Below the pieces are notes generated by a model. The model worked only from the letters and a program-made list of their open reading frames with translations. It was not told the DNA's origin and did no database searches. A program made the position numbers and the translations under genes. From Elusimicrobiota bacterium (lineage in GTDB: Bacteria; Elusimicrobiota; Elusimicrobia; JACQPE01), in contig JACPAN010000015.1 of the NCBI GenBank assembly GCA_016180815.1, forward strand, positions 62,001 through 126,000: a DNA stretch of 64,000 bases, written 5' to 3'. Within the stretch, counting starts at the first letter, position 1, and each line of letters starts with the position of its first letter. This document shows, in pieces, positions 14,792 to 36,628 of the stretch.

Positions 14792-14796
14792 AACAG

Positions 14797-15153
14797 TGGA
14801 GGTGGCCGGAATCGAACCGGCGTCCGAAAGCCTCACCCCGCAACATTTACAGGTTTAGTCCCCAGTTATACTTCGCGACCCCCCTGGGAACGGGGTTGAC
14901 CGCGAAGGCGCCTTATGTTGTCGGAAGCGGCCGGAGGCTGCTTGACTCACCGATTCCCTAGCCTTCTAAATGACGCTCTGACCGGGCTAGAAGGCGTTAC
15001 CCGGGGAGCGCAGGCTGAACCGCGGTTTAAGCGGCAGCCCAAGCGTACCCGACGTTATCGGCAGGTACAGTTTTGGCCGATTTTTACCTAGCCTCGGCCA
15101 ACTAGGACCTGAAGTTGCGTAGGATCCGCTCCCGTCGAACCCTGTGCACCCCC
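14797..15153 (-). ncRNA. ssrA: Transfer-messenger RNA (tmRNA)
   Basis: Rescues stalled ribosomes by adding a degradation tag. The 5' end GGGGGTG pairs with CACCTCC at the 3' end (one G-U pair) plus an A discriminator, and the T-arm is GGTTCGATTCC. The 5' half carries the conserved GGGTTCGACGGG. A tag reading frame runs from GCC at 15077 to TAA at 15027 and gives AKTVPADNVGYAWAAA, ending in AAA rather than the usual LAA. CCA is not encoded. Length 357 nt. Confidence 0.93.
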
Positions 15154-15198: not shown

Positions 15199-16452
15199 TT
15201 ATTTTAACAAGGAAAAGGGTGGTGGCCAGGAGAGGATTCGAACCTCCGTAGGGCATGGCCCGCCGGTTTTACAGACCGGTGCATTTAGCCGCTCTGCCAC
15301 CTGGCCGAAACTGCTAAACCCCCTGATTTCCAGGGGATTTTCTAAATCTTTTCCGCTCCCGTCACTAGCGCTTTTTGCTCCAGGTGGCATTAGGGTGTCT
15401 TTTTGAGAAGTAATTTCAACATTCCCTAAGCCTCCCAGGCTGTCTAAAACCCGAACGGCGCGCGCCTTATGCTCCGGCGAAAGATGCGCGTAACGCTGAG
15501 TCATTCGAAAACCGCTTTTGTGTCCCAGAAGCTCCCCGATCGTGGAAAGATCGATACCGCGCATCACGAGTTGCGATGCGAACGTATGCCTTAAATCGTG
15601 AAATCGAAAATCCCGGATGCCGGAGAGCTTGAGGGCCTTCTCAAACTGCGTCCTAATCCTACCAAAACGGCTCTCTTTTTTTCCCTTGCCGCTGACAAAC
15701 ACATAGGGTGAGTCCGGTTGTTTTACAACCGCCCGCAGAATTCGCATGAGCGGAAGGCTCATGGGAATAACCCTGGCCCCCTTGTTTTTGCTGTCCCGCA
15801 CGAAAATGAGCCCATTTTTAAAATCCACGTCGTCCCAGGCCAGATTCAATATCTCTCCCAATCTCATGCCCGAATGAATCGCGCAGATAACAATGGGGCG
15901 CAACCACTCGCAGGAGCACGAAACCAAAGAGGCAATGTCCCCTGCTTCCAAAAATCTGGTTCGCATATTGTTTTCCTTAAAAAACGGAACCGCCCTGACC
16001 GGATTTTCCTTGGCCTTGCCCCAAACCACAGCCCTCGAATACATAGTTTTTAAAACGGAAAGTTCGCGGTTGACACGTGCGCCGGAAACCTCCGTGCGCC
16101 GGACGGCTTTGTACCCCTCGATTTTAAGCGGCGTTATTTCGTCAAGAAAGCAGTTTCCAAAATGCCCCATGAGCTTATTCAAGATAATCTCATCATCGCG
16201 CCACGAACGCTTGTTGGGCTTGGCATGATTTTCTATATATAAAGCGATCATTTCCGCTAACGGAATACGCGCCTCTTTGACCTTGCCCAAAAACCGGCCC
16301 TCCGCTATCTCAACAATGCGCTTTTTCAAAATTTTCTGGGCCACAGTTTTATTGGGTCCGGCTTTTTCGCGAATTCTCCTGCCGTTAAAAACGTAATCAA
16401 TGTAAAAATCCCAACAACCGCCGGTCTTATTCCACTTTCTGTAAACCGCCAT
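15199..16452 (-). CDS. int: Tyrosine recombinase/integrase whose 3' end runs through tRNA-Tyr
   Basis: Site-specific recombinase of the integrated element. Residues 1-60 look like an arm-binding domain, about 65-160 a core-binding SAM-like domain, and about 165-335 the catalytic domain with R197, H285-x-x-R288, H311 and nucleophile Y321. After about residue 340 the sequence is no longer catalytic. Residues from about 383 onward are the in-frame translation of tRNA-Tyr (GQVAERLNAPVCKTGG) and the stop lies beyond the tRNA at 15199. The att core is therefore inside the gene. It is 9 bp downstream of the excisionase-like gene. Confidence 0.95.
   Translation of the reverse strand: MAVYRKWNKTGGCWDFYIDYVFNGRRIREKAGPNKTVAQKILKKRIVEIAEGRFLGKVKEARIPLAEMIALYIENHAKPNKRSWRDDEIILNKLMGHFGNCFLDEITPLKIEGYKAVRRTEVSGARVNRELSVLKTMYSRAVVWGKAKENPVRAVPFFKENNMRTRFLEAGDIASLVSCSCEWLRPIVICAIHSGMRLGEILNLAWDDVDFKNGLIFVRDSKNKGARVIPMSLPLMRILRAVVKQPDSPYVFVSGKGKKESRFGRIRTQFEKALKLSGIRDFRFHDLRHTFASQLVMRGIDLSTIGELLGHKSGFRMTQRYAHLSPEHKARAVRVLDSLGGLGNVEITSQKDTLMPPGAKSASDGSGKDLENPLEIRGFSSFGQVAERLNAPVCKTGGPCPTEVRILSWPPPFSLLK
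15220..15306 (-). tRNA. tRNA-Tyr (GUA anticodon), rebuilt by element integration
   Basis: Minus-strand class II tRNA: acceptor GGCCAGG/CCTGGCC, discriminator A at 15223 and an encoded CCA at 15220-15222. The anticodon loop is CTGTAAA (GTA), followed by a variable arm and T-loop GTTCGAATC. Its 5' half, from the anticodon loop to the acceptor, is identical to a copy at 36573-36611 and belongs to the att repeat. The whole tRNA lies inside the integrase reading frame, so its present promoter must come from the element. Confidence 0.95.
15268..15307 (+). repeat. Attachment-site direct repeat, tRNA-proximal end
   Basis: A 40-bp segment identical to 36573-36612. It starts in the anticodon loop and covers the whole 5' half of tRNA-Tyr. 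Bases at both edges differ between copies (15267 T against A; 15308 A against C), which defines the core. The copies are 21,305 bp apart. Confidence 0.92.
15380..15410 (+). repeat. Element-end repeat, left copy (possible integrase arm site)
   Basis: 31 bp matching 36454-36484 with two mismatches, in direct orientation, 73 bp inside the att core. The first ten bases, CCAGGTGGCA, also equal the 5' end of tRNA-Tyr. This copy is inside the integrase coding sequence. Confidence 0.7.
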
Positions 16453-16461
16453 AGCTAGATT

Positions 16462-16677
16462 TTACCTCCTGCGAGAGCTTTCATAATCAAATGGTTCAAC
16501 GCTCTGCTCCTTAATCCAGCAGTCGATTCTTTCCAAATCAAAACGCACGGCGCGGCCAACCTTGACGAAGGGAATGGTCCGTTCATGAATATGCTGATAA
16601 ATGGAGCCCTTGGTCATGCCCAGATAAGAAGCCGCCTCATCAACCGTTAAAAGCCGCTTCGTTGTCCTATCTTCCAT
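16462..16677 (-). CDS. Excisionase-like helix-turn-helix protein
   Basis: A 71-residue DNA-binding protein of the HTH_17/excisionase type: LLTVDEAASYLGMTKGSIYQH is the helix-turn-helix and IPFVKVGRAVRFDLERIDCWI the following wing. Such proteins bind attachment sites and direct integrases towards excision, or act as small repressors. It lies 9 bp upstream of the integrase and 9 bp downstream of the replication-relaxation-like gene, so all three are probably one transcript. Confidence 0.85.
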   Translation of the reverse strand: MEDRTTKRLLTVDEAASYLGMTKGSIYQHIHERTIPFVKVGRAVRFDLERIDCWIKEQSVEPFDYESSRRR

Positions 16678-16686
16678 ATTGCGCTT

Positions 16687-18090
16687 TTATTGACGACAAT
16701 TATCCCGTTGCTGGGCCACTAAACGAATAGCGGTTTTTTGGCCGGCGCAATCAATAACAGCGCCCCACCAAACAGCCTTGGCCGTGGCTTCATCGCGGCG
16801 GAGCAAGTAATAATGATGGGCTGATCGCACGCTTTGATAAATAACCCCGCTTTTAAATCCAACGATCCCCAAAGCCCATGTAGCGATCACCGCCATACAC
16901 GCTTGACCCCAGAGAAACCAAAGAAATACATGAAGGCCGTTTTCCATGTAGGGCCGCCGAGCTTGTTCAAAGAAAGTACGGGGCTTTTGAGTTAGGTCAG
17001 GAACGCTCAGCCGGGCCTGTTTTTCTTGATATTTTTTCATCACCCTATCTACAAAAACCCGGTAGTCCTCTTCTTCGTCTTTTTTAATCTGCGATTGGAG
17101 CGCCGCTGTTTTTTGCGTTAAATCAGCAGCGGCCGGTTCTTCATGAGCGCTGTGGCCGCTGCCGATTTCTTCTCCGGCCCGTGGCTCTTGCGGGGAATTC
17201 TCTTTCCCCGGCTCCGGCCCTACTGCCTCCGGCGACCAAGTTCTGTTCTGCGAGCCAAAACAATAGCTCCCCCCTTGAGCATCCCAAAGCAACCATTTAC
17301 CGTTTTCAATAAGGTCCAAGGTCGTGAAATAAAAAAAGGGCACATCTGGGAAAGGGCCTTCAAGTCCATCCATTAAGAAGCCCCTCAAAGAATTAACCAG
17401 GTTCTGATCCTTGCAGATATACCAGGCAGCCTTGACCCCGCGCCAATGCGTGAGTTCTCTAAAGGCTTCTTTGAGTTTTTCTTTGTTCTTTAAGGTTAAT
17501 TCGACTTCAATGGCTACCTGAAAACCCTCATCTTCCTTGGAACGCTTGAATCGGATCAATCCGTCAGGGACTTTCTTGTCCTTGGGGAATTGTTCCCAAA
17601 TCATGCTTTCCGGCATATAGTCCGTAATCAATGAATTTTTGGACAGTATTAAGCGGACCCTCGAACAGGAAATGCTGTGATTAAAGACGACGGATTTGTA
17701 TTGGCTTGGGTCAAAGCGGGAACGGACCCTTAGTTTTCCATGGCCTTCCAAAAGCTTGTATCCGGCCGGCGTAAAACAATACGCTTGTTTGGGCTTGCCG
17801 TAACTGTCGAAGGCGCGGAGAATGCCCTCGTCTTTAAGCTGGGCCAAAACCTTATAGGCATGGCTTTCATTGGAATAAATCAGCTTGGCTTCATGAATGG
17901 TTAAAAAGTCATGTTCCGCCATCACCCCCATTAAATCCAGCATCTTGGGGGTTATGGTTAATCGTTCCTTTTCCTTGCCCAGCTTTAAATCGTTGTTTTC
18001 TTTTAATCCGCCGTCCTCCTGAATCCCATTTCCTGAAGATTCCCTTTCTTTTGCTTTTCCCATTTCAATCATCTCTTCCTCAACCCCCAT
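16687..18090 (-). CDS. Replication-relaxation-like protein with winged helix and nuclease-like core
   Basis: A mobile-element protein. Residues about 45-115 form a winged helix (LTITPKMLDLMGVMAEHDFL... VLAQLKDEGILRAF). Residues about 130-250 resemble the replication-relaxation/PD-(D/E)xK-like domain, with PDG at 175-177 and EVEL (E195, E197) in the expected order. A Glu/Pro-rich linker leads to a hydrophobic segment around residues 385-410, so the C-terminus may be membrane-bound. Family members are linked to plasmid replication or mobilisation; this assignment is by resemblance. An alternative start is the ATG six codons in. It borders the nested palindrome locus directly upstream. Confidence 0.6.
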   Translation of the reverse strand: MGVEEEMIEMGKAKERESSGNGIQEDGGLKENNDLKLGKEKERLTITPKMLDLMGVMAEHDFLTIHEAKLIYSNESHAYKVLAQLKDEGILRAFDSYGKPKQAYCFTPAGYKLLEGHGKLRVRSRFDPSQYKSVVFNHSISCSRVRLILSKNSLITDYMPESMIWEQFPKDKKVPDGLIRFKRSKEDEGFQVAIEVELTLKNKEKLKEAFRELTHWRGVKAAWYICKDQNLVNSLRGFLMDGLEGPFPDVPFFYFTTLDLIENGKWLLWDAQGGSYCFGSQNRTWSPEAVGPEPGKENSPQEPRAGEEIGSGHSAHEEPAAADLTQKTAALQSQIKKDEEEDYRVFVDRVMKKYQEKQARLSVPDLTQKPRTFFEQARRPYMENGLHVFLWFLWGQACMAVIATWALGIVGFKSGVIYQSVRSAHHYYLLRRDEATAKAVWWGAVIDCAGQKTAIRLVAQQRDNCRQ

Positions 18091-18110: not shown

Positions 18111-18269
18111 TGCCCCGCCCCCTGCCATGTTGGGCTTTTCGCCGATAGCACCAGGTCACAACACCATTGCACAGACCTGGTGGGTGGAGGGTGGTCAGTC
18201 TTCGCGCCAGCGAAGACTGACCACCCTCCACCGCGAAAAGACCGGCTTTAGATGGCAGGGGGCGGGGCA
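18111..18269. repeat. Nested palindrome locus
   Basis: Several perfect inverted repeats are nested. An 18-bp outer arm (18111-18128 with 18252-18269) encloses an 8-bp arm (18135-18142 with 18233-18240), an 8-bp hairpin (18149-18156 with 18175-18182) and a 23-bp arm with a 4-nt loop (18183-18205 with 18210-18232). A further 9-bp arm (18161-18169) pairs outside, with 18303-18311. Nothing protein-like is convincing here. The position upstream of a replication-relaxation-like gene suggests an origin of replication or transfer, or a structured RNA. Confidence 0.85.
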
Positions 18270-21717: not shown

Positions 21718-22713
21718 TCACCATCGCGCTGCCAGGCTCACCCGATGCGTATCCCCCAAGAGTCCAAAGGGTTTGAAAGCATAGTCAATTTGAGCCCCCA
21801 TCAAACGGAAACCGACGCCTCCTGAGATTCCGTCGAGTCCGCTGTTGCGGGCCAACGGAGCCTGTTTGCCGAGGGCCGCAATATAGCCGCCGCGCAGGCT
21901 TAAGATCGGCAGGGCCTGATACTCGGTGCCGATATTAACACTGGTTTTATGGTTGATGAGTTGTTGTTTGACGTCCAAGGCTAAGGCGATGCCCATGGGG
22001 AGCCGGTAGCTTAAGCCTCCGGAAAGCGCGAGCGGCAACGGATCGCGCTGCTCGATAAATCGAATCCCTGGGCCTATGTTCTGCAGGGCTAGACCCAGGG
22101 ATATGGGGGAATGGGAACGCGCGGAAATCATCAATCCCAGATCAAAAGCAAAGGTATCGGCTCTATAGCCTGCAATCTCGCTTTGAATAAGCTTGGTATT
22201 TAATCCCGCCTGGATAAAGCCTATTTTTCTGCCATAGCCCAAGGATAAGGATTGATCCTGGGCTTTGATCGATCCTGTTTTTTCTCTGTTTTGTCCCCTT
22301 GCCTCGGAAGCACCTTGAGACAGAACGCTGATAGAGCCCGCGAATGTCCCTATTTTCCCCGGATACCCGAACCCCAGGAAATTGTATTGACTGTCTAAAA
22401 GCCACTGAGAATACATAGCCCCTATCTCAGGCTGATTCATTAAAGCCAATCCCGCCGGGTTCCAGTGCAAAGAGGAAATGTCATTAGCTAAAGCCGTGTA
22501 GGCCCCGCCCATGCCCACGGGCCTGGCTCCCACCGGGATATTCAAAAACTCGGCCCCTGTTTTTTGAGTTGTTTGAGCAAAAAGGGATAAAGCCATGGTC
22601 AAAATCCAGGCTAAAGCAGCCAGCACAGCCCCCAGCCAAACCTTGCTCCTTCGCGCCGGCCGCTCCGGCGGATAAACATGTTTAGTTATAAGAGGACACT
22701 CACCTGACCACAT
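21718..22713 (-). CDS. porV: PorV/PorQ-family outer-membrane protein
   Basis: Predicted outer-membrane barrel of the FadL-like PorV/PorQ group. The hallmark FLNIPVGARPVGMGGAYTALANDISSLHWNPAGLA follows a signal sequence (residues about 22-46). In type IX secretion, PorV shuttles cargo with C-terminal sorting domains to the cell surface. It overlaps the last 14 bp of the giant gene, with an AAAGGA Shine-Dalgarno 7 nt before the ATG, so the pair is translationally coupled. The giant protein ends in a sorting-like domain, supporting a cargo-partner relationship. Confidence 0.85.
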   Translation of the reverse strand: MWSGECPLITKHVYPPERPARRSKVWLGAVLAALAWILTMALSLFAQTTQKTGAEFLNIPVGARPVGMGGAYTALANDISSLHWNPAGLALMNQPEIGAMYSQWLLDSQYNFLGFGYPGKIGTFAGSISVLSQGASEARGQNREKTGSIKAQDQSLSLGYGRKIGFIQAGLNTKLIQSEIAGYRADTFAFDLGLMISARSHSPISLGLALQNIGPGIRFIEQRDPLPLALSGGLSYRLPMGIALALDVKQQLINHKTSVNIGTEYQALPILSLRGGYIAALGKQAPLARNSGLDGISGGVGFRLMGAQIDYAFKPFGLLGDTHRVSLAARW

Positions 22714-25700
22714 AAATTTTTCCTTTGGCTCTCAGAACTTCCGAGCCTTTTTTGGCTTCAACCAGATAGATGATTTGAGGCAGGCCGCTTAGGCTTTCCT
22801 CTTTGACAAGCTCCCCGGATATCGAATAAATCAGGATGCGCGCGGAATCAGCCAGGCCGGTTTCAATGTGAAGGGTGGGTTTGGCTCCGCCTATAGCGGG
22901 ATTGGGATAGGCATAAATTTCTCCCAATTGGAATTTTGGATCAGGTCCCAAGGCTTGCGGAGTGTCAAGAGCGGCCGCTGTTTTAGCGCCGCCTTTTTGT
23001 TTCTCGCCGTCTTGTGTTTGCGCGGGGATTTGACCGGATAAACCGTCGGCTTGAACAAAGAGCGAAGCCCCTTGAATCACGATGTCTTTAGCAAAAAGAT
23101 TGCCGGTAATCGAGCTGTTGCCCGTGGCTTTCACCGAGGAGTTCGGCGCATAAAGAATAACCGCGGCCCGCGATCCTCCCGCAAATTCGTGGGTTCGGTC
23201 GAAATCCGAGAACACGACCAAGTCTGCGGCCCGTCCCGAGGCGTTCATCGATCCTGCGCCGGTGATGACCAGAGGCCCTGTCAGAAAAATGCGCACGGGA
23301 CCGCTGGAAATTAAAGCCGCTTGGGAATCGATGCTCATCCCGGAGAAAAGATAGCTGCCTGCGTCCAACGTCAAGATCGCGCCCTTGCTGACAACAAGCG
23401 CCCCATCCGGGCTCAGGAATTGGCTTGGGATTAAGCCGTTGTCGTTGGTTTGGGCCAAATCAGCTTTGATGGAAGCTAAATCAATGGGAGAGGCATGAAC
23501 GGAATCCGAAGCGATGGTTTGCGTGCCGATAATAACGCTGTTTCCTTTAAGCTCGATGGCCGGGGCCATCACGCTTCCCGTGAGGCGGACATTGCCCGAA
23601 GCGTTGTAGGCGCCGTTGGAGACGATTTTACCCACAATATCCGCCGTTCCCGAGGCGGTGATGGTAGCCGTCCCTGCCGCGATCATGGCCGTCTCCCTTA
23701 AAGGCGTCACGGACAAAGCGAGTGTCCTCGCAGTCTCAAGATTCCCCAGATTATCCCGGCTTCTGTATTTGACGGCATGCTCCCCCTGGGCAGGCAAAGT
23801 AAACGCCGCAGAATAGACCTGAAAAGCGTCGTCATCAACGGCAAATTCCGTTTGCGATACATCGGAGCTCACCCCGTTAACCTTGGGATCGACCGCAGAA
23901 AGAGTAATGAGGGTATTGGGTGTAATCACGGTCCGGCCAAAAGCGCTGAAGGCGCCCTCCCCCAAACTCAACTCAGTGGTGGGCGGGGTGTTATCCACCG
24001 CGATTTGGACGGTCTTTATCGTTTCTTGATTTCCCACCACATCCACGGAAAAGAATTTCACTTCATGAAACCCTTCAGCAGAAATAGCGAATGTGGCGCT
24101 AAATACGGCAAACGATGATTGATCGACGCTGAACTCGGTCCGGGCCACGCCCAAACCGATGCCGTCGCCCACCTCGACTAAATCATCAATAGCGGAAAAC
24201 CCAAGCGATGTGTCCTTGGTGACAAAAACAGGGTTGTCCCCGAATTTGGGCTCTCCGGCAACCAGGCTTGTCCTGGGCGCCAAAAGATCATGAATCACTT
24301 CAAAAACTCCGGACACGGTAATTGTTGAGTTATTTACCCAGTCCTTGGCCTCAACCTCCAAAACCCAAAGACCATCGTCAATAGAAAGAGGGTCGATCAC
24401 TTGTCCTTGATGGACGATAAGTCTGGTTGGACCTCTGGTTGTTCCGGTGTTCTGACGTTGCACCAATTCCAGGCGCAGAATGTCGGGAGCGGGATCGAAA
24501 TTGTCGGAAACAGAAGCGTTGATTGTGATCGAGCCTTGGGAAGCGACAAAGCGTTCCCCTCCTGCCGGGGAAGAAACGGTCACAACAGGAGGGGTCCGGT
24601 CAATCAAAATCTTTTCGGTTTGATCCTCGCCTTGGTTTCTGGATAAATCCTTGCCGGAAATGACGATGGTTTGCTCGCCTTCCAGGGCGTCTTGAGCGGC
24701 CGAGAGTTTAAACGTCCAAGAAAAAGACGGCGGCTCGTTTTTGTCAAAAGCCTGCGAGTTTCCGGCTTTAACCACCGGCTCGCCTAAAAGCCGTTCAGAA
24801 GCGATGAAGCGTATCGTGGCCGTGGACAAGGGACCGGCGACAGATGGTGAAGAAACATCAACAATGCGGATTAAATCAAGCGACAAAAATTCCAGCACTG
24901 GGCTTGCCTGTTCGGTCGTGGCCCGCGAGAGCGTGCTCCTAAACTTGATTTGGCGATGGGTTATATCGGCTGACGATAAAAGATCGATAGGAAAGAAATT
25001 TTGTCCGTCCGAGGTGAACTCGTGTTGAATGGAGCCTTGCGCCAAATTCTGCGTGACCTGGAAATGATTGATTTTGGACAGCTCAGGCAAGCTGATAAAG
25101 GGCGTTTCCACCGTGCCCAGCAATGTGCCCTCTTGGGAGCCGCCGCCTCCGTTGCCTGAAGGGCCGGAGAGTATTCTAAAGCTCCGGACATCCAAACCGA
25201 TGGGCACAGGCTCAAAGGAGCGGGCTTCCAAGCCGAAGCCCGCTCCGCGAAGATCGGGGTCCCCAAACGTCAGTTGCCCCGTAAGAATTTCATTGCCGTT
25301 GACGGACAACCGGACATTGCCCTGGCTAACCGTGACAAGATAATCGAGGAAATCGAACGTTTGCGCCGGAGGCAGGTCGATATCCCTTCTGCCCAACACC
25401 TGTTCCCTGGAATTGTTGAACAAACGCGCCAGCCCGGCGGCTGTGTCGATTTCCAAAACGCCTCCAAATTGATCATCCTGCATAAAAATCAACAGCCTGG
25501 AATCCGATGTTTTGAGCGCGGCGCGCAGCTCCAAGCGATATTCCTGCGAGGCGCTTAATTCCTGCATAAACAAATAGTTAATATCCCCGTCATCCGGGGA
25601 GGAAAGCTTTAAGAACGATTGCATGGTCGCGCCTTCAGTCACTATTTGTTCGCTGGGAGGCTGGGTAAAGAATCGATTGATTCTTTTTTGAACGAAGGGG

Positions 25701-28700
25701 CCGAATTGTTCGGGCAGCACAGTCGCCTGATAATCCACCAAGACCCCGCCCGGACCTCCGCCGTTGCCCGGGGAGCCTCCTGTCGGCGGCTCGGGCCCTC
25801 CCGTGAAATACCGGAAGAATTCAAACTCCGCGTCCAGGGTTCCGTCGGGAACCAGGGTCTTGGCTCCATAGGCCACCTGGGGTAGGGCGTCGAAGGCAAA
25901 GGGCGAAGTAGGAAGAGCAGCCTCAAGGCGTAGAACGCCGTCTTCAAAAACGCGCACTAATTGTTCCGCGAGCGAGTTGGGATCAGGCCCCACGCTCAAT
26001 AGGTAAGTCCTGGTTTCTCCGGTACCCGCTCCGATTGGAAACTCGCCGATCGTTGCCGTCTCAGGAGATAATAAATCGCCGTTTGTAAAACGCAGCGTGC
26101 CCTGGCCGGGCTCGATCAATAGCTCCAGGGCCGTGTCTTGATCGCTGATAACCGTCATGCTTAAGGCTGTCTGTTCATTCATGGCCCGGCCCCGCATCTC
26201 CGTGACATAGCCCTGATCAATGTTCAACTCAAAATTTTCCTGGGTATAAAAGGCATGGGCGAAGCCGAAGGTCGTCAATCTTAAACTCCCCGGCGTCAAT
26301 TCCTGGGATACGTTTAAAATAGGAATCGAGGCCAAGAATTGGAAAGGCGGAGCAAAGCCGGTGGGAAGCTCGGCAGTTCCCGCGGCCTGATACTCTACCG
26401 TCCATTGCCCGGTTCCCGGATCGGGACCCGGCCCCGGACCCCCGCCATCAATCAATTTCACCCCGCCGTTGAAGGCCGTCAGCCCGTTAAACACGTTGAC
26501 CGGGTCATTGGCCTGGATGAATAAGGGGGCTGTTCCCGAGAACGTGGGCGGCGTGTTGTCCACCACGATCACCACGCTTTGGGCGGAGGAATGATTGTCC
26601 AGGTTATCCGTGGCGTCAAAAGTCAAAACAAAACGGCCCTCTTCGGAAAAATTCATGGGGAGCATGACAGGCTCGGAGTTACCTTGATCAGCGGGGCATT
26701 CATCTGTGACTGGGTCAGGCTCAGGACAGGGCTCCTGAGCGTTGCCGTTTAACCGCTCCAGCCTGAATACGGTTTCCCTGACCCCTGAGCCTGCGTCCGT
26801 GGACCTAAAATCAATCATGTCCGCGCTGTTTACATAAATCGTCCCGTTTTCCCGGAACACTCCAGAGGGTAGAATAAGTTCCGTGGCAGGCGGGGTATTG
26901 TCTAGGGCGATTTTTATTGTTTGGGTTGACTCTGAGTTGCCCTCGGTATCCTGCGCGTAAAATCTCAAGTCATAGGTCCTGTCTTCAACGCCCAGAAGAT
27001 TAAGGGCCTTGGAAAAAACAGGGGACGTGGATTGGGGATTGAGCACGGCTTCATCAAAAATGGAATCTAAGCCCAAGTTCAAGCGTTCCACCCCGATGCC
27101 CTGGCTGTCCCCTAATTCATTGGCATCGTCTTTGACATCAAAGTTAAGCGTTGTATTAGCCGTTATAAAAACAGGCTCCTGCCCTAATCGCGGCAGTCCG
27201 ATGAATAGCGTTGTCCTTGGCGGTAGAATATCCTTGTGCACGATTTCAAAAGGACCGGAAACAACCGAAGTCGAGTTAAAAACAGAATCCTGCGCTTGCG
27301 CGCTCAGCGTCCAAATCCCGTCATCCAGGCTTAGAAGATCAAGCTCCTGGCCATTAGCCACGGGAGCAAAAGCCGGTCCCGTTGTTTCTCCTTTGTCCTG
27401 CGTTTGAATCAAAGTAGCCGAAGAAATTGGGGCGGGATCAAAATTGTCTTGAACCAGAACGTCGATTTTGGCCTTGTCTCTGGGATGAATGAGCTTGATA
27501 TTGGATACGGGGGATTTTACGGTGATTCTTGGCGGCGTCACATCCACCAGAACAAGAGCGGTTTCATCTTGTCCTTCATTGCCGGACAAGTCCCTTCCCT
27601 TAATAACGACCGGGATCAATCCTTCCTGGATGCCGTTATCGATTAAGAAATTAAAATTCCAGGACAAAGACGCAGGCACATTGCCGTCAACGGCGTTTAA
27701 GTCGCCGATTGTGACCGAAGGCTTGCCCACAAGTCTTTCCGAAGCCAAAAATTCGATGTTTAACGGCTGTCTTTTACTGATGGCTGAGGCGGACAATTGG
27801 ACCTTGCTGTCAAATTCCAGACGCAAAGCCGTTAAAACAGGGCTTTTCTTTCCTTTATCATCCCGGCTTAACGTGCTTTTGAATTTGATTTGCCCTGCCG
27901 ATATTGCCGTCTGGGAAAGCTCGCTAACGGGAAAGAAATTCGTTCCATCATTGGTGAATTCATGAATAATTTGCCCCTCGTTCACAAATTGAATGGGGGT
28001 AAAGCCGGAAAACAAAGCCGATGTCGAAACATTGATGAACGGCGTCTCCAATGTCCCGGCCAAAGCCCCTTCCTGAACGGTTTTAGCGATGCGGAAATAA
28101 TCGATTTCCATTTGTGGAAGGCCCTGCGCGACGAAGGGCTCGACAGCCGCCACGCCGAAGAACCCGCCCGGATGCAAAGAAGCGGATTTAGGCGGCAATT
28201 GCGCCTCAAAAAGCGTTTGATTATCGGCAAAAACTTTGGCTTTCCCGCTATTGACCTCGATTGCATAGGCATGGAAGCTCAACGCATCAGGCATGGGCGC
28301 CGAGGCGATGGGCGCGCCCAGCATATCCGCCTGAATCCTTGCGCCTCCCGCCTGATCGATTAAAAGAATTCCGGCAAAACTTTCGTCCTCAAAGCCGAGG
28401 GCTAAGAGGGAATTCGGGCTCGCTGGCCGTCCTCGTAGTTGCAGTTGATAAGACTCGTTTGAGTTTAACGCGAGGGGAAATTGATACGCAATGCCACCTA
28501 AGTCCGTTTGGACTTGGAGAATATCCTCGCGTATTTTTTCTTCGGTTTCTTCAAGCGTGGGCAAATTCGCGCCTTCCTTGATGCGCGCGAGTCCAACCTC
28601 ATTCGGCAACCGGGCCGCGTCATAAGAGAAAACGGTTTCCTGCCCTGTTGCGCCCCTGGCCGCCCGGAAAAAATCGATTTCCGCGATGCCTTGACCGATG

Positions 28701-31700
28701 GGCGCCAGGCTCTCCACACCGAAACCGGCAAAAGTCAAAGCAGCAGGGTCCGGGGGCAAGGGCGGGTTTGTCCTAAAAGCAAAACCAATGGGCTCGTTAT
28801 TAATAAAAAATGTCATCTCTTCTCCGGTCGCGCCGCCGTTATTTAGGCCATAGGAATTGAATTCCTGAGGATCAAAGCCCCGCTCGCGGATATTCATCAT
28901 TTGCATTTCGACCTGCACATCCTGCGTTCTTTGAATGGAGACATTGCCGTCATGATCGACTCTCAATTGGAAGGAGTTCCTCTCATCGTTGAATTGCATC
29001 AGCAAAGCCGCCCTGTCGACGACGCGCCCCCGCATCTCAATGCCGTAAGGCTCGTCTGAATTAAATCCGGTGTTGACGAAAAGATAAGAGACAAAACCTA
29101 AGGCGCCTTCCACGCCCACGCGCAATGCGCCGGCCATGATTTCCTCAATCACCGGTTGCGCGTTGGAAAGCACGGTTTGCAAAGGCGGATTATTGTGCTG
29201 GGGCAAAACATTGCCTTCATAAACCAGCAATCCCTCCGGGTCTTTGCGGATAACGAAGGATTCAACCTCAAGCCCCACGTTTTTAATATCCGCCGCAATC
29301 GCGTTCCTTGCGCCGAACCCGGTCAAAGTGTCAGCCAAACTTCCTTCAAAAGGCGGCAGAAAGCCGGTAAAAAGAATTTGCCCGTCTATGGAAAGCTTTA
29401 AATCGCCTCCCTGTACGCTTACGCCCCAGGTGTGGAAATTACCCACATCGATTCCTTGGGCCGCATAAAGAATCTGCCCGCCGGACACCAAAGCCAAATG
29501 CCCCGTCTTATCCAAAAACAGCCTGCCCTGGAATTGCCCGTCGAAGAAATTTAATGTCATGACCGACTCCAAATCTCCGATGGGCCGGGCTTTCAATTCC
29601 AAGGTGTATTGTTGGGAGCTGTTGATATTGGGATTTAAGCTGTAGAAAAACCCGCCCTGAGTCCGGGCCGCGGCCCTTAAAAATCGCTGATCGATGACTT
29701 GTTGGGAAACAATTCCTCCAATAGTGTCTTGGCGAAGAGGCATGGTTCTGACGATGGGGCTGAAGTCTTGAGGAATCACCCCGGCTTCGTAGCTGATCAT
29801 GGGTTTGACCGGAGTCTGTTGAGGCAATTGGGGACCGTCCGTAAAATAACGGAAGTAGTCGATTTCCACATTGCTGGAATTCGCCCCTGCGCCGAAAGGA
29901 TCGCCCGCCCCAAATTCCGCGAAGGGCATGAAGGGCAACTCATGGGCCGGGATATGAGGCGGCAGAAACTCGCGCACATCCTGCTCAACAATCGTTGTTT
30001 CATCCGCCAGAACCTTGACCAGAAAATCCTTGACCGCAATGCGGTAATCATGGAATTCCATGGGCTCGTTAATATCGAACTCCTGCTGGAACCATCCGCT
30101 GCCGAAGGCAAGCTCCTCAGGGTTGTCCCCGACAGTCAATCGCCCTTGCCCGGCGCCGCTAATCGTCAAAAGAATCCCGTAGCGGTTGTTGAATCCGCCC
30201 ATTCTTAGAGCCGAGTCCTCGTCAACGGGCCTGGCCCTCATCTCAAGGACATAGCCCTTATCCGAAGAAATCCTCAAATTGGGCTGCTCGTAAATCAAAG
30301 CCTCCCCTTGAAATGCGCTAATTTTGAGCAAACCCTCTTCGACGCTTCGCTCAAAAGCAGGGGCAAAGAGAGGAGAAATCCTAAACCTTGGCGTGTTTTC
30401 TTCAGGCAGAACGTCCCCCGTATATTCCACGCTCCAGGGGGAAAGCAAAGAAGGGTCAACCTCTCCTTGCCCCGCCAATCTTACCGAGGCGTGGGCGATT
30501 TCCAAATCCGTCAGCGTGTTCAAGGGGTCGGCGGCCCGGACATAAAGCGTGTCCGAGAATGAAGGAGGGGTGTTGTCGATGATTATGGTCGCCGCATGGC
30601 CTGCCTCCGCGTTATCGACATGGTCCACGGATTTAAAAACAAGAATGAATTCGCCTTCGGAGGGGAAAATCAACGGCTCTTGAGGATTGAAAACCTGGAA
30701 TTCCCCGCCGTTGACGCTGTACAGAGTATGTTTAACGCCGGCCAAATTGTCTTGGGTTTCAAAACTAAAGGAATCGTTGCTCGTTGCGTAATAAACGTTG
30801 TTTTCTTTGAAGAGTTCTCTTGATGCTTTGAGTGTTGTTTGCGGAGGGGTTTGATCTAAGGCGAGGATTGCCGTCTGCTGTTCTTCCTGGTTGCCGGAGA
30901 AGTCTGTGGCAGAGTAGCCGATGGTATGAGGACCATCCCCGGCCCCTAAAAGGGTCACCGTGGTGATGAAGGGCTTATCTGGCGGGTCTTTGTTGGAAAA
31001 GATATGAGTAAAAAGTCCGTCAATGGTTACAGTTAGACTGGCCACGCCCACGCCTAAACCGTCCCCCGGAGAAAGAAGCCCGTCGTTTGAAGTCAATTCC
31101 AAAGGCGTGTCCGGGCCGATGATTAAAGGCTCGGCAATGATCTGAGGCGTGCCCACCCGCAGTACGGTCCTGGGCGGCACCCGATCCTCCCCCCGTTTAA
31201 TGGCCACGATAAAGGTGCCCAAGGAGGATGTAGTGCCGATCACCACGTTTAACGATGTATCTAATTGGGTGGTGATGTCGATCAATGAGCCGATTTGATA
31301 TAGACGAACGTTTGCCTCATCTTCCGGATTCAACCCCGCATCGTCATAGGGTATACGCAATGCCACATTACCCTGCGTATTGGCCAAAGAAATGACTCCA
31401 AATTGAGGAACAACCGTCTGCACCGCCTCCTCCGGCGGCAGAACGTCTTCGCTTTCTAAGAAAGCATAGATGTGTCCTGGATGAGAAACTTGGTCAAAGG
31501 CAAGCTCGGCGTTGTTAATTCCAAGTTGAACAGAAATGTTATTGCCTCGGCGCAAAACTTGAGTTCCGGGTATCTCGTTCTCCAGAACCATCGCCCGAAG
31601 GATTCCTTGCGGACGAGTTGGGTCAAAAGCAACGGGAAAAACCCCAGCCGAACTATAAACATAAGCTGGTTCTCCGGTATCTGTCTCCAACCAACAAAGC

Positions 31701-34030
31701 CCCAAAGACCTCGGAGTGGAAAATTGATTGTGATCAATAAACCTGTACGAAAGGGTTGGGGAGCCATCTAAAGGTATCGAATTGCCTTGAGGGACAATAT
31801 TGATGGTTTCAATTCTATCGGCGCAGGGAACAAGAAAAGGATCTGGAAATTCGGGAATGTTGGCCTGAGGAAAGACCGGACTTATTTTAGGCTCAAGACT
31901 TTCATTTTGATTCGATTGAAAAGCGGGATGACAGATCAAATTGTTGGAATCCGAACCTAGGCAGAATTCCCGTGTTTGGGAAAAGACAGTGCCGGCTACC
32001 GTAAGATCATTAAAGCAGGGGCTTGTACTGGGGTTGCAAATATGAGGTGAAATAGTACGGCTGAAAATACCCGCAGGGACGACAACACGATGCGGGCTGC
32101 CGCTTAGAATCCGTCTATTCCAATTAATTTTTAGTTCCAATGGGACTATGGTTTCGCCGAGAAGACCCAACATTCCTGAAAAATTTAATTCAGCGACTTC
32201 ACTGATAGTTTTGACAACCACACCTCCTTCGACCACTTCAGATTCAGTGCCGGGGATATGAGGAGCTTCAATCGGAAATTCTTCAATGCGCCAACGAAGC
32301 TGAGCTTGCTCCGGTGAAAGCAACCCTCTGTGAACCAGCCGGGAAACTCCCCGACTCCAAATTTTAAAATTAGCCAAATTGATCTGAAACTCGCTGGGTG
32401 ACGAATCCGAGCCATCTTGGGTCGAAGAATTGCCCGCTCGGTCAATGGCGACGATACTATAGCTGCCATCCGGCAAAGACCCGATGTTAAAAGGCGCATT
32501 GACTAAATTTTCTCCAGAAAAACTTATTTCATTGATGACGTTCTCTGATGAATCTTGTAGTTTAACCGACGCTATGCCGCTGCCTTCATCCGTTGCTTCA
32601 ACGGCCAATGAAGGATCGTCAAAAGTGGCCGCCAACTTTGGGCCCGAGATGTCCAATATGAATGAAAAATTTTTGATATTTCCCGATTTATCTTTAGCCT
32701 CTACGCGATAGGTCCCATCCGGCAGACCGGACAAAGAGAACTCCGTGCTTTGAGGAGTGGTTTCTCCGCCAAGGAATCTTGACTGAGAAATTTCCGAACC
32801 GTCAGGACCGAACAGTTTGATTGACTCCAAACCGCTTTTAGGGTCCTCGGCCTGAGCCAAAAGCTTGGACGTATTGGTAAATTGGCCTTCAGGCAAGGAT
32901 ATTTCGGTGTCGGCAACGATAAGGTCTAAAGTCGGCGGGGTCCCATCAATCTCAAATCTGGTCTCTTGGCAGTTGGTTTGGTTGCGGATGTTCGTCCAAC
33001 AGGCGATGAGCCGGTGTTCGCCGTCATGAAGACCCTCCGGCATCCAGTCGGTAAAAACAAAGTCTTCGCGGCCGACTCCCCTCGGTAGCACTCCATTGCT
33101 GCTGCCGTCTGCATAAACCGGCGGGTCTCGGTCCCGGCAGCCCGGAAGATCATCCGGGCATCCGCTGGTTTCGATATCGGTATGTAATGGGTCATGGAAG
33201 CTGGTTAATCCTCCATAAGCCCAGGTTCGAACATGCCCGGTGATTGAAATGTTATCCACGAAAATATCCAACGAGTCTAAGTTGGTCCCGATTTGAGAAT
33301 CCAGCCGGACTTTTAAAAATGTGCTTGCAGAATTATGGACATTGACTAGAAAACCGTTGGTCCGGACGCGTCCCAATTGGTCGATAAATTGAACGGTGAA
33401 ATTGCTGGCGGTATGATTGATATGGGTTAGAGGATTTTCGCTGACGCCGAGCCCAAGATCAATGTGCATGTGCGCGGGAAAGCCACCGGATGTGCCGGCG
33501 GGGCCGACGGGGGAACGCGCACGACTTGTGGTGCGCAAATTTTCCCCTTGTGCATTTAGAACAGGGGTTCCATTTATTAAAACGAGCTGGTTATCTGCGT
33601 TTTCCGCAGACAATGCATAATCTGCCACCGTCCGATTTGTACCTTGCAGCCAGCGCACGATACACAAATTTTCCTCATCGGTTCTTGTCAGGGTAAATTC
33701 TCCTGAGTCTATAGGTAGGGAAGCATTGTTGAACATATGAAGATAGCGAAAAAAATGGTTGTTATCGGTGAGTAAGCTTAAGATAAGAATACCATCGTTG
33801 GCGTAATTCAGTGAGGTTATCCGTCCTGCTTCTAAGAGTGGAAGTGATACGCCCTCTGCCGTTCCGTAATCAATACCTTTATGGAAATCCGGAGATGGTA
33901 ATAGTCGCGGCCCAAAATCCGAAGTAACGGTGAAGCCGGGATCCACGGCTGTAATATGAGCATGGGCTATATTGGTGACAGTAAAAAAGCATCCCGCCAA
34001 AATAGCTTCGAGCGCAGCATACTTCAACAT
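22700..34030 (-). CDS. Giant secreted protein: M23 peptidase, Ig-like and lectin-like repeats, sorting domain
   Basis: About 3,776 residues, exported by a signal peptide (1-25). Residues 30-260 are an M23/LytM peptidase domain with H51-x3-D55, H99 in RYLHM and H188-x-H190, a complete zinc/catalytic set. Then come Ig/OmpL47-like modules marked by TPP or PPRT segments (near 954, 1064, 1157, 2169, 2269, 2381, 2496, 3147, 3254, 3351) and jellyroll modules ending in EIDYFR-like strands (1200-2130 and 2560-3000). A bactofilin/DUF7305-like solenoid spans about 3450-3665. The last 75 residues resemble a type IX sorting domain (IYAYPNPAIGG, ILIYSISGELV). It is coupled to genes on both sides. Start is ATG at 34030 or the GTG just before. 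Confidence 0.85.
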   Translation of the reverse strand: MLKYAALEAILAGCFFTVTNIAHAHITAVDPGFTVTSDFGPRLLPSPDFHKGIDYGTAEGVSLPLLEAGRITSLNYANDGILILSLLTDNNHFFRYLHMFNNASLPIDSGEFTLTRTDEENLCIVRWLQGTNRTVADYALSAENADNQLVLINGTPVLNAQGENLRTTSRARSPVGPAGTSGGFPAHMHIDLGLGVSENPLTHINHTASNFTVQFIDQLGRVRTNGFLVNVHNSASTFLKVRLDSQIGTNLDSLDIFVDNISITGHVRTWAYGGLTSFHDPLHTDIETSGCPDDLPGCRDRDPPVYADGSSNGVLPRGVGREDFVFTDWMPEGLHDGEHRLIACWTNIRNQTNCQETRFEIDGTPPTLDLIVADTEISLPEGQFTNTSKLLAQAEDPKSGLESIKLFGPDGSEISQSRFLGGETTPQSTEFSLSGLPDGTYRVEAKDKSGNIKNFSFILDISGPKLAATFDDPSLAVEATDEGSGIASVKLQDSSENVINEISFSGENLVNAPFNIGSLPDGSYSIVAIDRAGNSSTQDGSDSSPSEFQINLANFKIWSRGVSRLVHRGLLSPEQAQLRWRIEEFPIEAPHIPGTESEVVEGGVVVKTISEVAELNFSGMLGLLGETIVPLELKINWNRRILSGSPHRVVVPAGIFSRTISPHICNPSTSPCFNDLTVAGTVFSQTREFCLGSDSNNLICHPAFQSNQNESLEPKISPVFPQANIPEFPDPFLVPCADRIETINIVPQGNSIPLDGSPTLSYRFIDHNQFSTPRSLGLCWLETDTGEPAYVYSSAGVFPVAFDPTRPQGILRAMVLENEIPGTQVLRRGNNISVQLGINNAELAFDQVSHPGHIYAFLESEDVLPPEEAVQTVVPQFGVISLANTQGNVALRIPYDDAGLNPEDEANVRLYQIGSLIDITTQLDTSLNVVIGTTSSLGTFIVAIKRGEDRVPPRTVLRVGTPQIIAEPLIIGPDTPLELTSNDGLLSPGDGLGVGVASLTVTIDGLFTHIFSNKDPPDKPFITTVTLLGAGDGPHTIGYSATDFSGNQEEQQTAILALDQTPPQTTLKASRELFKENNVYYATSNDSFSFETQDNLAGVKHTLYSVNGGEFQVFNPQEPLIFPSEGEFILVFKSVDHVDNAEAGHAATIIIDNTPPSFSDTLYVRAADPLNTLTDLEIAHASVRLAGQGEVDPSLLSPWSVEYTGDVLPEENTPRFRISPLFAPAFERSVEEGLLKISAFQGEALIYEQPNLRISSDKGYVLEMRARPVDEDSALRMGGFNNRYGILLTISGAGQGRLTVGDNPEELAFGSGWFQQEFDINEPMEFHDYRIAVKDFLVKVLADETTIVEQDVREFLPPHIPAHELPFMPFAEFGAGDPFGAGANSSNVEIDYFRYFTDGPQLPQQTPVKPMISYEAGVIPQDFSPIVRTMPLRQDTIGGIVSQQVIDQRFLRAAARTQGGFFYSLNPNINSSQQYTLELKARPIGDLESVMTLNFFDGQFQGRLFLDKTGHLALVSGGQILYAAQGIDVGNFHTWGVSVQGGDLKLSIDGQILFTGFLPPFEGSLADTLTGFGARNAIAADIKNVGLEVESFVIRKDPEGLLVYEGNVLPQHNNPPLQTVLSNAQPVIEEIMAGALRVGVEGALGFVSYLFVNTGFNSDEPYGIEMRGRVVDRAALLMQFNDERNSFQLRVDHDGNVSIQRTQDVQVEMQMMNIRERGFDPQEFNSYGLNNGGATGEEMTFFINNEPIGFAFRTNPPLPPDPAALTFAGFGVESLAPIGQGIAEIDFFRAARGATGQETVFSYDAARLPNEVGLARIKEGANLPTLEETEEKIREDILQVQTDLGGIAYQFPLALNSNESYQLQLRGRPASPNSLLALGFEDESFAGILLIDQAGGARIQADMLGAPIASAPMPDALSFHAYAIEVNSGKAKVFADNQTLFEAQLPPKSASLHPGGFFGVAAVEPFVAQGLPQMEIDYFRIAKTVQEGALAGTLETPFINVSTSALFSGFTPIQFVNEGQIIHEFTNDGTNFFPVSELSQTAISAGQIKFKSTLSRDDKGKKSPVLTALRLEFDSKVQLSASAISKRQPLNIEFLASERLVGKPSVTIGDLNAVDGNVPASLSWNFNFLIDNGIQEGLIPVVIKGRDLSGNEGQDETALVLVDVTPPRITVKSPVSNIKLIHPRDKAKIDVLVQDNFDPAPISSATLIQTQDKGETTGPAFAPVANGQELDLLSLDDGIWTLSAQAQDSVFNSTSVVSGPFEIVHKDILPPRTTLFIGLPRLGQEPVFITANTTLNFDVKDDANELGDSQGIGVERLNLGLDSIFDEAVLNPQSTSPVFSKALNLLGVEDRTYDLRFYAQDTEGNSESTQTIKIALDNTPPATELILPSGVFRENGTIYVNSADMIDFRSTDAGSGVRETVFRLERLNGNAQEPCPEPDPVTDECPADQGNSEPVMLPMNFSEEGRFVLTFDATDNLDNHSSAQSVVIVVDNTPPTFSGTAPLFIQANDPVNVFNGLTAFNGGVKLIDGGGPGPGPDPGTGQWTVEYQAAGTAELPTGFAPPFQFLASIPILNVSQELTPGSLRLTTFGFAHAFYTQENFELNIDQGYVTEMRGRAMNEQTALSMTVISDQDTALELLIEPGQGTLRFTNGDLLSPETATIGEFPIGAGTGETRTYLLSVGPDPNSLAEQLVRVFEDGVLRLEAALPTSPFAFDALPQVAYGAKTLVPDGTLDAEFEFFRYFTGGPEPPTGGSPGNGGGPGGVLVDYQATVLPEQFGPFVQKRINRFFTQPPSEQIVTEGATMQSFLKLSSPDDGDINYLFMQELSASQEYRLELRAALKTSDSRLLIFMQDDQFGGVLEIDTAAGLARLFNNSREQVLGRRDIDLPPAQTFDFLDYLVTVSQGNVRLSVNGNEILTGQLTFGDPDLRGAGFGLEARSFEPVPIGLDVRSFRILSGPSGNGGGGSQEGTLLGTVETPFISLPELSKINHFQVTQNLAQGSIQHEFTSDGQNFFPIDLLSSADITHRQIKFRSTLSRATTEQASPVLEFLSLDLIRIVDVSSPSVAGPLSTATIRFIASERLLGEPVVKAGNSQAFDKNEPPSFSWTFKLSAAQDALEGEQTIVISGKDLSRNQGEDQTEKILIDRTPPVVTVSSPAGGERFVASQGSITINASVSDNFDPAPDILRLELVQRQNTGTTRGPTRLIVHQGQVIDPLSIDDGLWVLEVEAKDWVNNSTITVSGVFEVIHDLLAPRTSLVAGEPKFGDNPVFVTKDTSLGFSAIDDLVEVGDGIGLGVARTEFSVDQSSFAVFSATFAISAEGFHEVKFFSVDVVGNQETIKTVQIAVDNTPPTTELSLGEGAFSAFGRTVITPNTLITLSAVDPKVNGVSSDVSQTEFAVDDDAFQVYSAAFTLPAQGEHAVKYRSRDNLGNLETARTLALSVTPLRETAMIAAGTATITASGTADIVGKIVSNGAYNASGNVRLTGSVMAPAIELKGNSVIIGTQTIASDSVHASPIDLASIKADLAQTNDNGLIPSQFLSPDGALVVSKGAILTLDAGSYLFSGMSIDSQAALISSGPVRIFLTGPLVITGAGSMNASGRAADLVVFSDFDRTHEFAGGSRAAVILYAPNSSVKATGNSSITGNLFAKDIVIQGASLFVQADGLSGQIPAQTQDGEKQKGGAKTAAALDTPQALGPDPKFQLGEIYAYPNPAIGGAKPTLHIETGLADSARILIYSISGELVKEESLSGLPQIIYLVEAKKGSEVLRAKGKIYVVR

Positions 34031-34033
34031 CAC

Positions 34034-35600: not shown

Positions 35601-36278
35601 TTAGCTGATTATTATGCGAAAGCCCTGGCCGGGTACCCGGTCAACATAAACCGCATTCCTTAAATGAGCGGGGATCGCCTGGCGAACGCGGCTAAGCAAC
35701 ATTCTTAAGCCCGTGGAAGGAATCCCCAGGTGTCTTTGGACCTCCTGATCGGAAACAACCTCGTTCATATGGGCGGCCAATAAATAAAGAAACCTGGAAA
35801 TCTCGGGGGTGAGATACTTGGATTTTCTCATTCCATGATCCGCCCACAGGGCGTCGGCCTGGGGATCCAGGGCAATGCTTCCTGCCTTTAAGGCTGATCT
35901 TTTACGGTACAGCGAGATTTTTCCTTTGATGAAGAAAAGAATTGAAGCGGTGTCCAATCCAGGCCCCAGGCAATCGATCCCAAGCCCCAGGGCCGCTTTT
36001 CTGTGTTCGATGCTGCCTTCGCGGCAAAGACAAAAAAGAGGAATAAAGGACAGACGAGACGTTTTATCGAGTTTTTCGGCCAATGCCTTGACCTCGCCCG
36101 TTTGACTTTCCGGCTCTCCCACAAGCAATATGGCGTCCGGGAAATGCTTCATGGCTTGAGGATAAACCTGGGCGGCTGTCGCGGCGCGCACGAGAGATAC
36201 TTTTTCCTTCTGGAAGAATTTTTTCATTCGTTCGTAAGAGCGAGAAGCTTTCGCCATGACGACGATTTTCATCTGCAT
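35601..36278 (-). CDS. Degenerate response regulator with winged-helix output domain
   Basis: Residues 1-120 keep the receiver-like fold pattern (IVVMAKASRSYERMKKFF... FPDAILLVGEPES), but the phosphoacceptor Asp is replaced by Val and the acidic pair and conserved Lys are missing, so phosphorylation is unlikely. Residues 130-225 are an OmpR-type winged helix (FLYLLAAHMNEVVSDQEVQRHL, then RMLLSRVRQAIP and VDRVPGQGFRI). It lies beside the riboswitch operon on the same strand and near two matching dyads, so it probably regulates that operon. A GGAGG Shine-Dalgarno precedes the start. Confidence 0.75.
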   Translation of the reverse strand: MQMKIVVMAKASRSYERMKKFFQKEKVSLVRAATAAQVYPQAMKHFPDAILLVGEPESQTGEVKALAEKLDKTSRLSFIPLFCLCREGSIEHRKAALGLGIDCLGPGLDTASILFFIKGKISLYRKRSALKAGSIALDPQADALWADHGMRKSKYLTPEISRFLYLLAAHMNEVVSDQEVQRHLGIPSTGLRMLLSRVRQAIPAHLRNAVYVDRVPGQGFRIIIS

Positions 36279-36319
36279 CAGAGGGATCCTCCCGGCCTAT
36301 GTTTTTATAGATTTTAATG

Positions 36320-36336
36320 AATCATTGCGAATGATT
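36320..36336. promoter_or_regulatory. Dyad upstream of the degenerate regulator gene
   Basis: Perfect 7-bp inverted repeat AATCATT/AATGATT with spacer GCG, about 40 bp upstream of the regulator's start. Sequence is unlike the GTAAC dyads. Confidence 0.4.
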
Positions 36337-36453
36337 TAATGGACGGAATTTCTTTTAGCATAAAGCGGGCCGCTGGTTTTTGCAAGGGGTAAATTTTCGA
36401 CAGCGTAGGGATAAATAAATTTCAGCGCAACCAAATGAAATGGAGGGTATTCC

Positions 36454-36484
36454 CCAGGTGGCATTAGGGTGTCATTTTGGGAAG
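36454..36484 (+). repeat. Element-end repeat, right copy
   Basis: Matches 15380-15410 with two mismatches, same orientation, 88 bp inside the right att core. Non-coding here. Two direct copies of GGGTAAAG (36501-36518) follow between it and the core. Confidence 0.7.
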
Positions 36485-36523
36485 CAAAACGGCTCAAAAC
36501 GGGTAAAGTTGGGTAAAGAAAAA

Positions 36524-36544
36524 CCCCTGAAAATCAGGTTTTTT
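36524..36544. terminator. Terminator at the element's right end
   Basis: CCTGA/TCAGG stem with AAA loop, flanked by an A-run on the left and a T-run on the right, so it could work on both strands. In the circular form it would follow the integrase gene directly. In the integrated state it is parted from that gene by the whole element. Confidence 0.6.
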
Positions 36545-36572
36545 CATCATTCTCCGACGGGGGTTCTTGACA

Positions 36573-36611
36573 TTTACAGACCGGTGCATTTAGCCGCTCT
36601 GCCACCTGGCC
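36573..36611 (-). pseudogene. Orphan 5' half of tRNA-Tyr
   Basis: Identical to the 5' half (acceptor to anticodon loop) of the complete tRNA-Tyr at 15220-15306, but what follows on the minus strand (TGTCAAGAACCC) is not tRNA. This is the original chromosomal half displaced by integration, still next to its presumed promoter. Confidence 0.9.
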
Positions 36612-36612
36612 G
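36573..36612 (+). repeat. Attachment-site direct repeat, distal end
   Basis: 40 bp identical to 15268-15307; marks the right boundary of the integrated element. Confidence 0.92.
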
Positions 36613-36622
36613 CTCGGCTTAG

Positions 36623-36628
36623 ATTATA
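36623..36628 (-). promoter_or_regulatory. Stranded -10 box of the original tRNA-Tyr
   Basis: TATAAT on the minus strand, 11 nt before the acceptor start of the orphan half-tRNA. No good -35 is visible at 16-18 bp. It now drives only the half-tRNA and element sequence. Confidence 0.5.

Follow-up and report, generated by a model that had tools for sequence, protein, structure and literature searches.

The question raised by this locus is whether a mobile island that enters a tRNA gene also switches the end of its own integrase, as protein and as transcript, each time it recombines. The stretch of DNA analyzed (hereafter the window) comprises 64,000 nt from an Elusimicrobiota bacterium (JACQPE01), namely positions 62,001-126,000 of the forward strand of contig JACPAN010000015.1 in assembly GCA_016180815.1. 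The answer that we regard as likely is that a 21.3-kb island enters a tRNA gene through its 5' half, that the change of the integrase end is a by-product of this arrangement, and that the only tRNA-Tyr of the genome is transcribed from the island. Read from the sequence, the arrangement itself is real and a switch of this kind is already known; any function of the end change is hypothetical.

The island is delimited by an exact 40-bp direct repeat that corresponds to nucleotides 0 to 39 of tRNA-Tyr(gta) and ends in the anticodon loop. The original prediction had already proposed this repeat and had placed its right copy one base off. The relevant features are as follows.

15220-15306, minus strand: tRNA-Tyr(gta), with its 5' half borne by the island; the sole tRNA-Tyr found in the genome.
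15268-15307, minus strand: att core, integrase-side copy, tRNA nucleotides 0 to 39.
36573-36612, minus strand: att core, displaced copy, which is the chromosomal original 5' half of tRNA-Tyr.
36623-36628, minus strand: TATAAT of the original tRNA-Tyr promoter, read from the sequence, about 11 nt before the displaced 5' half.

A search of the whole genome that allowed up to 3 mismatches found no third copy of the core. Because the island (21.3 kb) lies on the 5' side of tRNA-Tyr, the intact tRNA uses the island copy of its first 39 nucleotides. An intact tRNA, a tRNA fragment present as a direct repeat and an integrase between them are the marks of a tRNA-targeted integrative island, and in two related genera tRNA-Tyr adjoins the tmRNA gene without an intervening integrase, so that these loci look unoccupied. 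The element is best read as an integrated mobile island that has its attP compressed into the 3' end of the integrase gene and its immediate surroundings. We infer both that excision takes place at the 40-bp repeats and where exactly the crossover falls. In the pathway proposed here, strand exchange would occur at or near the anticodon loop and the island would enter via the 5' half of the tRNA, supplying tRNA nucleotides 1-39 and shifting the chromosomal 5' half with its promoter to the far end. Further elements of the island are listed below.

15380-15413, no strand assigned: arm-type direct repeat, copy within the integrase ORF, 91% identical to the other copy.
36454-36487, no strand assigned: arm-type direct repeat, far-end copy.
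16462-16677, minus strand: excisionase-type HTH protein of 71 aa (TIGR01764, HTH_17).
16687-18090, minus strand: MobC-like replication-relaxation protein (NF041423, 51 bits, below the curated cut-off of 200).

The arm-type repeats, 34 nt long and situated just inside each island end, support the putative att site from both sides, and the excisionase-type gene ends 9 nt before the ATG of the integrase.

The integrase gene crosses one of these att copies, and its two predicted ends depend on the following stretches.

15199-16452, minus strand: ORF of the tyrosine integrase, encoding 417 aa in the integrated form (395 shared aa plus a 22-aa tail).
36534-36572, minus strand: coding sequence of the circular-form tail CQEPPSENDEKT with its stop codon, predicted from the joined core.

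As had been claimed, the ORF is open from its ATG through the core and tRNA-Tyr to a stop 21 nt beyond the tRNA, at 15199, so that the 22 residues of the integrated tail are encoded by the 3' half of the tRNA and the sequence after it, and the protein ends in VCK-TGGPCPTEVRILSWPPPFSLLK. If the core is joined to the bases that lie below 36573, the circular reading given earlier is obtained, with an integrase of 407 aa that ends in VCK-CQEPPSENDEKT. The predicted ends differ between the two states because the core overlaps the integrase frame without a stop before or inside it; recombination would thus exchange the 22 residues of the integrated tail for 12 others in the circle. This change of the C-terminus is real as far as the sequence goes, and that either tail is translated we infer.

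The protein is a tyrosine recombinase, matching PF00589 in a profile search (E 1.2e-33) and possessing a catalytic domain with the R, K, H, R, H/W and Y residues of this family; R197, K222, H285, R288, H311 and Y321 are invariant among 30 aligned proteins. The core starts after residue 381 and the changed residues begin 75 aa past the catalytic Tyr at position 321. Since the structure model of the integrated form, confident to about residue 340, has pLDDT <50 for residues 343-417, the changed part belongs to an end predicted to be disordered.

The attP of Myxococcus phage Mx8 lies within the integrase coding sequence (PMC6070905; reportedly also Tojo 1996). In Mx8, integration provides int with a different 3' end and changed properties (PMC6070905), and both Mx8 and SSV integrases were noted as crossing attP in the Islander survey (PMC4383910). 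The present locus resembles Mx8 in that the core lies within the coding frame and recombination would alter its 3' end; a C-terminus rewritten by integration is already known, from Mx8 IntP. Unlike in Mx8, the core is here the 5' half of a tRNA, the tRNA promoter is displaced and any change of activity is hypothetical. In the archaeal suicidal integrases of the SSV type the core also lies within the integrase gene and the target is a tRNA (PMC8371274), but SSV integration splits the enzyme, whereas here all catalytic residues precede the core. In Islander, a 5' tRNA fragment was also recorded for 159 of 3919 islands (PMC4383910), a class that the present island resembles in having its ends marked by an intact tRNA, a tRNA fragment and an integrase; unlike Islander overall, the islands considered here form a group spread through the phylum that uses the 5' side as a rule.

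This group was delineated by a search of the phylum, in which 85 of 295 genomes proved to encode related integrases. Among the Elusimicrobiota cases with a tRNA nearby, 36 of 39 have the integrase directed at the 5' end of that tRNA, compared with 5/23 in other relatives. Both att copies were mapped for 12 islands, in tRNA-Tyr, Ser, Arg, Ala, Thr and Lys (the near copies L122 and L123 both counted, G035C9 and G204C90 counted once), and in all 12 the core is the 5' half of the tRNA, reaching nucleotides 37-45. The predicted protein end changes in four of them, that is, the window, G035C9/G204C90 (tRNA-Tyr), L103 (tRNA-Ser) and G035C3 (tRNA-Ser), while in the other eight a stop before or inside the core leaves the end unchanged. 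Three viral contigs (L162, L166 and L169) resemble, by eye, free attP forms of relatives, and have stops before or in the core.

The original prediction was that recombination toggles both the protein end and the transcript end. The part of it that stands is descriptive: the predicted ends differ, and in the integrated state a tRNA follows the gene. A functional switch of the Mx8 kind, in which integration would swap the integrase C-terminus and so alter its activity or its preference of direction, is quite unlikely in our judgment, even with the Mx8 precedent and with two predicted ends recurring in two separate lineages, one at tRNA-Tyr (G035/G204) and one at tRNA-Ser (G004 and G035). Of 36 relatives, 16 keep the integrase frame free of stops as far as the tRNA, against 6.4 expected from shuffles and 6 and 3 in the other two frames; therefore, the gene end is truly extended. 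Beyond nucleotide 39, however, 10 of these 16 stay open against 7.7 expected from the three frames, a comparison in which L057, with its poor domain end, adds one to both observed and expected and in which the rows are related and the trials not independent. Selection for reading across the crossover was accordingly rejected, there being no excess over random frames. On the tree, the trait of reading past the core must have changed four or more times along branches with good support, and all five members of the window's clade, at two tRNA targets, read past the crossover. This last point favors a switch; against it stand the single end kept by 8 of the 12 mapped relatives, the disorder predicted for the altered residues far from the catalytic Tyr, and the evolution of the tail in one close pair of the window's clade (L056/L093), where 41 codons carry 11 non-synonymous and 3 synonymous changes compared with 18.5 and 34.5 in the catalytic part (Fisher P 0.005), which suggests an almost neutral tail. 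The same observations weigh against the claim of a selected toggle. A point against a mere by-product is that each of the four predicted circular tails is short and has many E, K, P, S and T residues. The similar ones (PPSEN, PPTEN, TPSEK) fall, however, on a DNA motif that is repeated; by eye, a TTCTCGTCGAGAA-like motif is present untranslated in relatives without the overlap, so that the likeness of the tails may be explained by a repeated DNA motif (CCGACGGAAAA-like) at that place. Most likely, then, the end change merely follows from the close packing of arm sites, core and gene end, as in the reading that we prefer; the frame past the crossover is open in some members and closed in others. 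Some use of the overlap may exist all the same, because the whole of the window's clade reads past the crossover and the frame is open to the tRNA above chance.

The end of the transcript is the second part of the question. The tRNA-Tyr of the window is the only one found in the genome, the other long-arm tRNAs checked being Ser or Leu, and the island separates it from its original promoter, which lies displaced beside the far repeat. The loss of its own promoter by an essential tRNA, through insertion of an island, is more striking than the switch of the protein end, and this transcriptional change is the stronger of the two changes of state. According to a review, rebuilt bacterial tRNAs use the original promoter with very few exceptions (PMC8371274). 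Because its own promoter is displaced, tRNA-Tyr must be transcribed from inside the island. No -10-like box was found directly before the tRNA in the window or in its nearest kin, so that an excisionase-integrase-tRNA transcript, with tRNA-Tyr as its last part, would be the simplest reading; tRNA-Tyr is thus probably transcribed through the integrase gene, from the integrase side. Across the group, a -10-like box stands just before the tRNA in 18 of 37 islands, against 6.5 expected, and two tRNA-Thr islands hold a copy of the original leader with TAGAAT (L136, 18587-18648; L140, 18733-18795; oriented coordinates), so that in these two the island seems to have acquired the promoter as well. In ICEKp1, the transcription context of the integrase also changes with integration at a tRNA, where the tRNA promoter drives int (PMC13023037). 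The arrangement here is the opposite, with int upstream of the tRNA and probably driving it. It differs as well from the tRNA-dependent lysogeny of mycobacteriophages, in which the core is short, the tRNA is not rebuilt and a whole tRNA is brought along, since the 40-bp core rebuilds tRNA-Tyr and a tRNA scan found no other tRNA within the island. If tRNA-Tyr depends on the island transcript, then loss of the island, expression of the integrase and supply of the tRNA are linked. In the region 36278-36628, the displaced promoter now faces into the island, toward minus-strand cargo genes.

A terminator had also been claimed for the circular form, in a hairpin that proved to be part of a larger symmetry.

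36526-36538, minus strand: claimed terminator hairpin, also one half of the inverted repeat CCCCTGRAAATCAGG.
15320-15336, no strand assigned: other half of CCCCTGRAAATCAGG, forming a strong hairpin within the integrase ORF, some 13 nt ahead of the tRNA (0/200 shuffles).

The hairpin exists, with a 5-bp stem followed by GGTTTTTC on the minus strand according to the terminator scanner, but its strength as a terminator is weak, as shuffled versions of the region fold just as well (z -0.38). Terminator-like sites number 6 here compared with 2.1 expected by chance, and about 6 of 60 shuffles gave an equally good site in a terminator-type scan, so that 36526-36538 was rejected as a sure terminator. 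In the relative G035C9, the circular tail, SGPADEKSQTKK in both G035C9 and G204C90, is followed immediately by a strong, textbook-like terminator. In attP the two halves of CCCCTGRAAATCAGG lie on either side of the core, at distances of 14 nt on the near side and 34 nt on the far side (0/200 shuffles), and may be a protein site. The CCCCTGRAAATCAGG motif also precedes the core at tRNA-Arg in a further island of the genome (L084).

Two further explanations concern what integration does to the integrase message and to the island itself. RNase P cuts transcripts at the 5' end of tRNAs, and a tRNA needs this processing to work. Because RNase P should cut a read-through transcript at this point, the tail encoded by the tRNA may rarely be made. 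A cut at 15306 would leave an integrase message devoid of a stop, whose product would be tagged by tmRNA and destroyed, so that integration would lower Int; in the circle the half tRNA would be no substrate and the message would retain its own stop. This proposal, which we regard as rather unlikely, needs nothing more than an ORF that enters the tRNA, as in the 16 relatives above, and fits the -10-like box missing before the tRNA in the window and close kin; it is compatible with the preferred reading as a further step. It is not general, however, because 20 of 37 relatives have a stop before the tRNA, and a separate tRNA promoter could exist. Its fullest form, which is equally doubtful, is that the integrase message is the precursor of an essential tRNA and that each mature tRNA-Tyr destroys one message, which would make the island both the sole source of the tRNA and self-silencing. 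That the island is instead fixed or decaying, with an accidental overlap and excision lost, would agree with the fact that no read or contig of the circle was seen, with the replacement of an essential gene's promoter by the island, and with a related copy in the same genome that has stop codons in its aligned region; we consider it unlikely, as the catalytic residues, the excisionase gene, the arm repeats and a perfect 40-bp core all remain.

Several minor observations concern the surroundings of the locus and its relatives. The tmRNA gene (14796-15153) lies directly downstream of tRNA-Tyr, an order kept in two other genera, and a promoter-like site for it at 15201-15228 overlaps the 3' end of tRNA-Tyr. 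Within the island, an inverted repeat of perfect 23-nt arms around a loop of 4 nt (18183-18232) is surrounded by a perfect 18-nt pair (18111-18269), and the cargo at 22700-34033 is a repetitive protein of 3777 aa adjoining a UPF0164/PorV-like outer-membrane protein at 21718-22713. The same genome has further related integrases (L002/L084, L004/L087 and L003/L088), which lie at tRNA-Arg(ccg), at tRNA-Lys(ttt) and at a tRNA-Lys half; the copy on contig C7 has stops in the aligned region, although its main frame is open. Finally, L096/L242 (G035) and L097/L246 (G204) are located on a 29-kb island and contig that are almost identical between two genomes of different groups, which may reflect a recent transfer or mixed bins.
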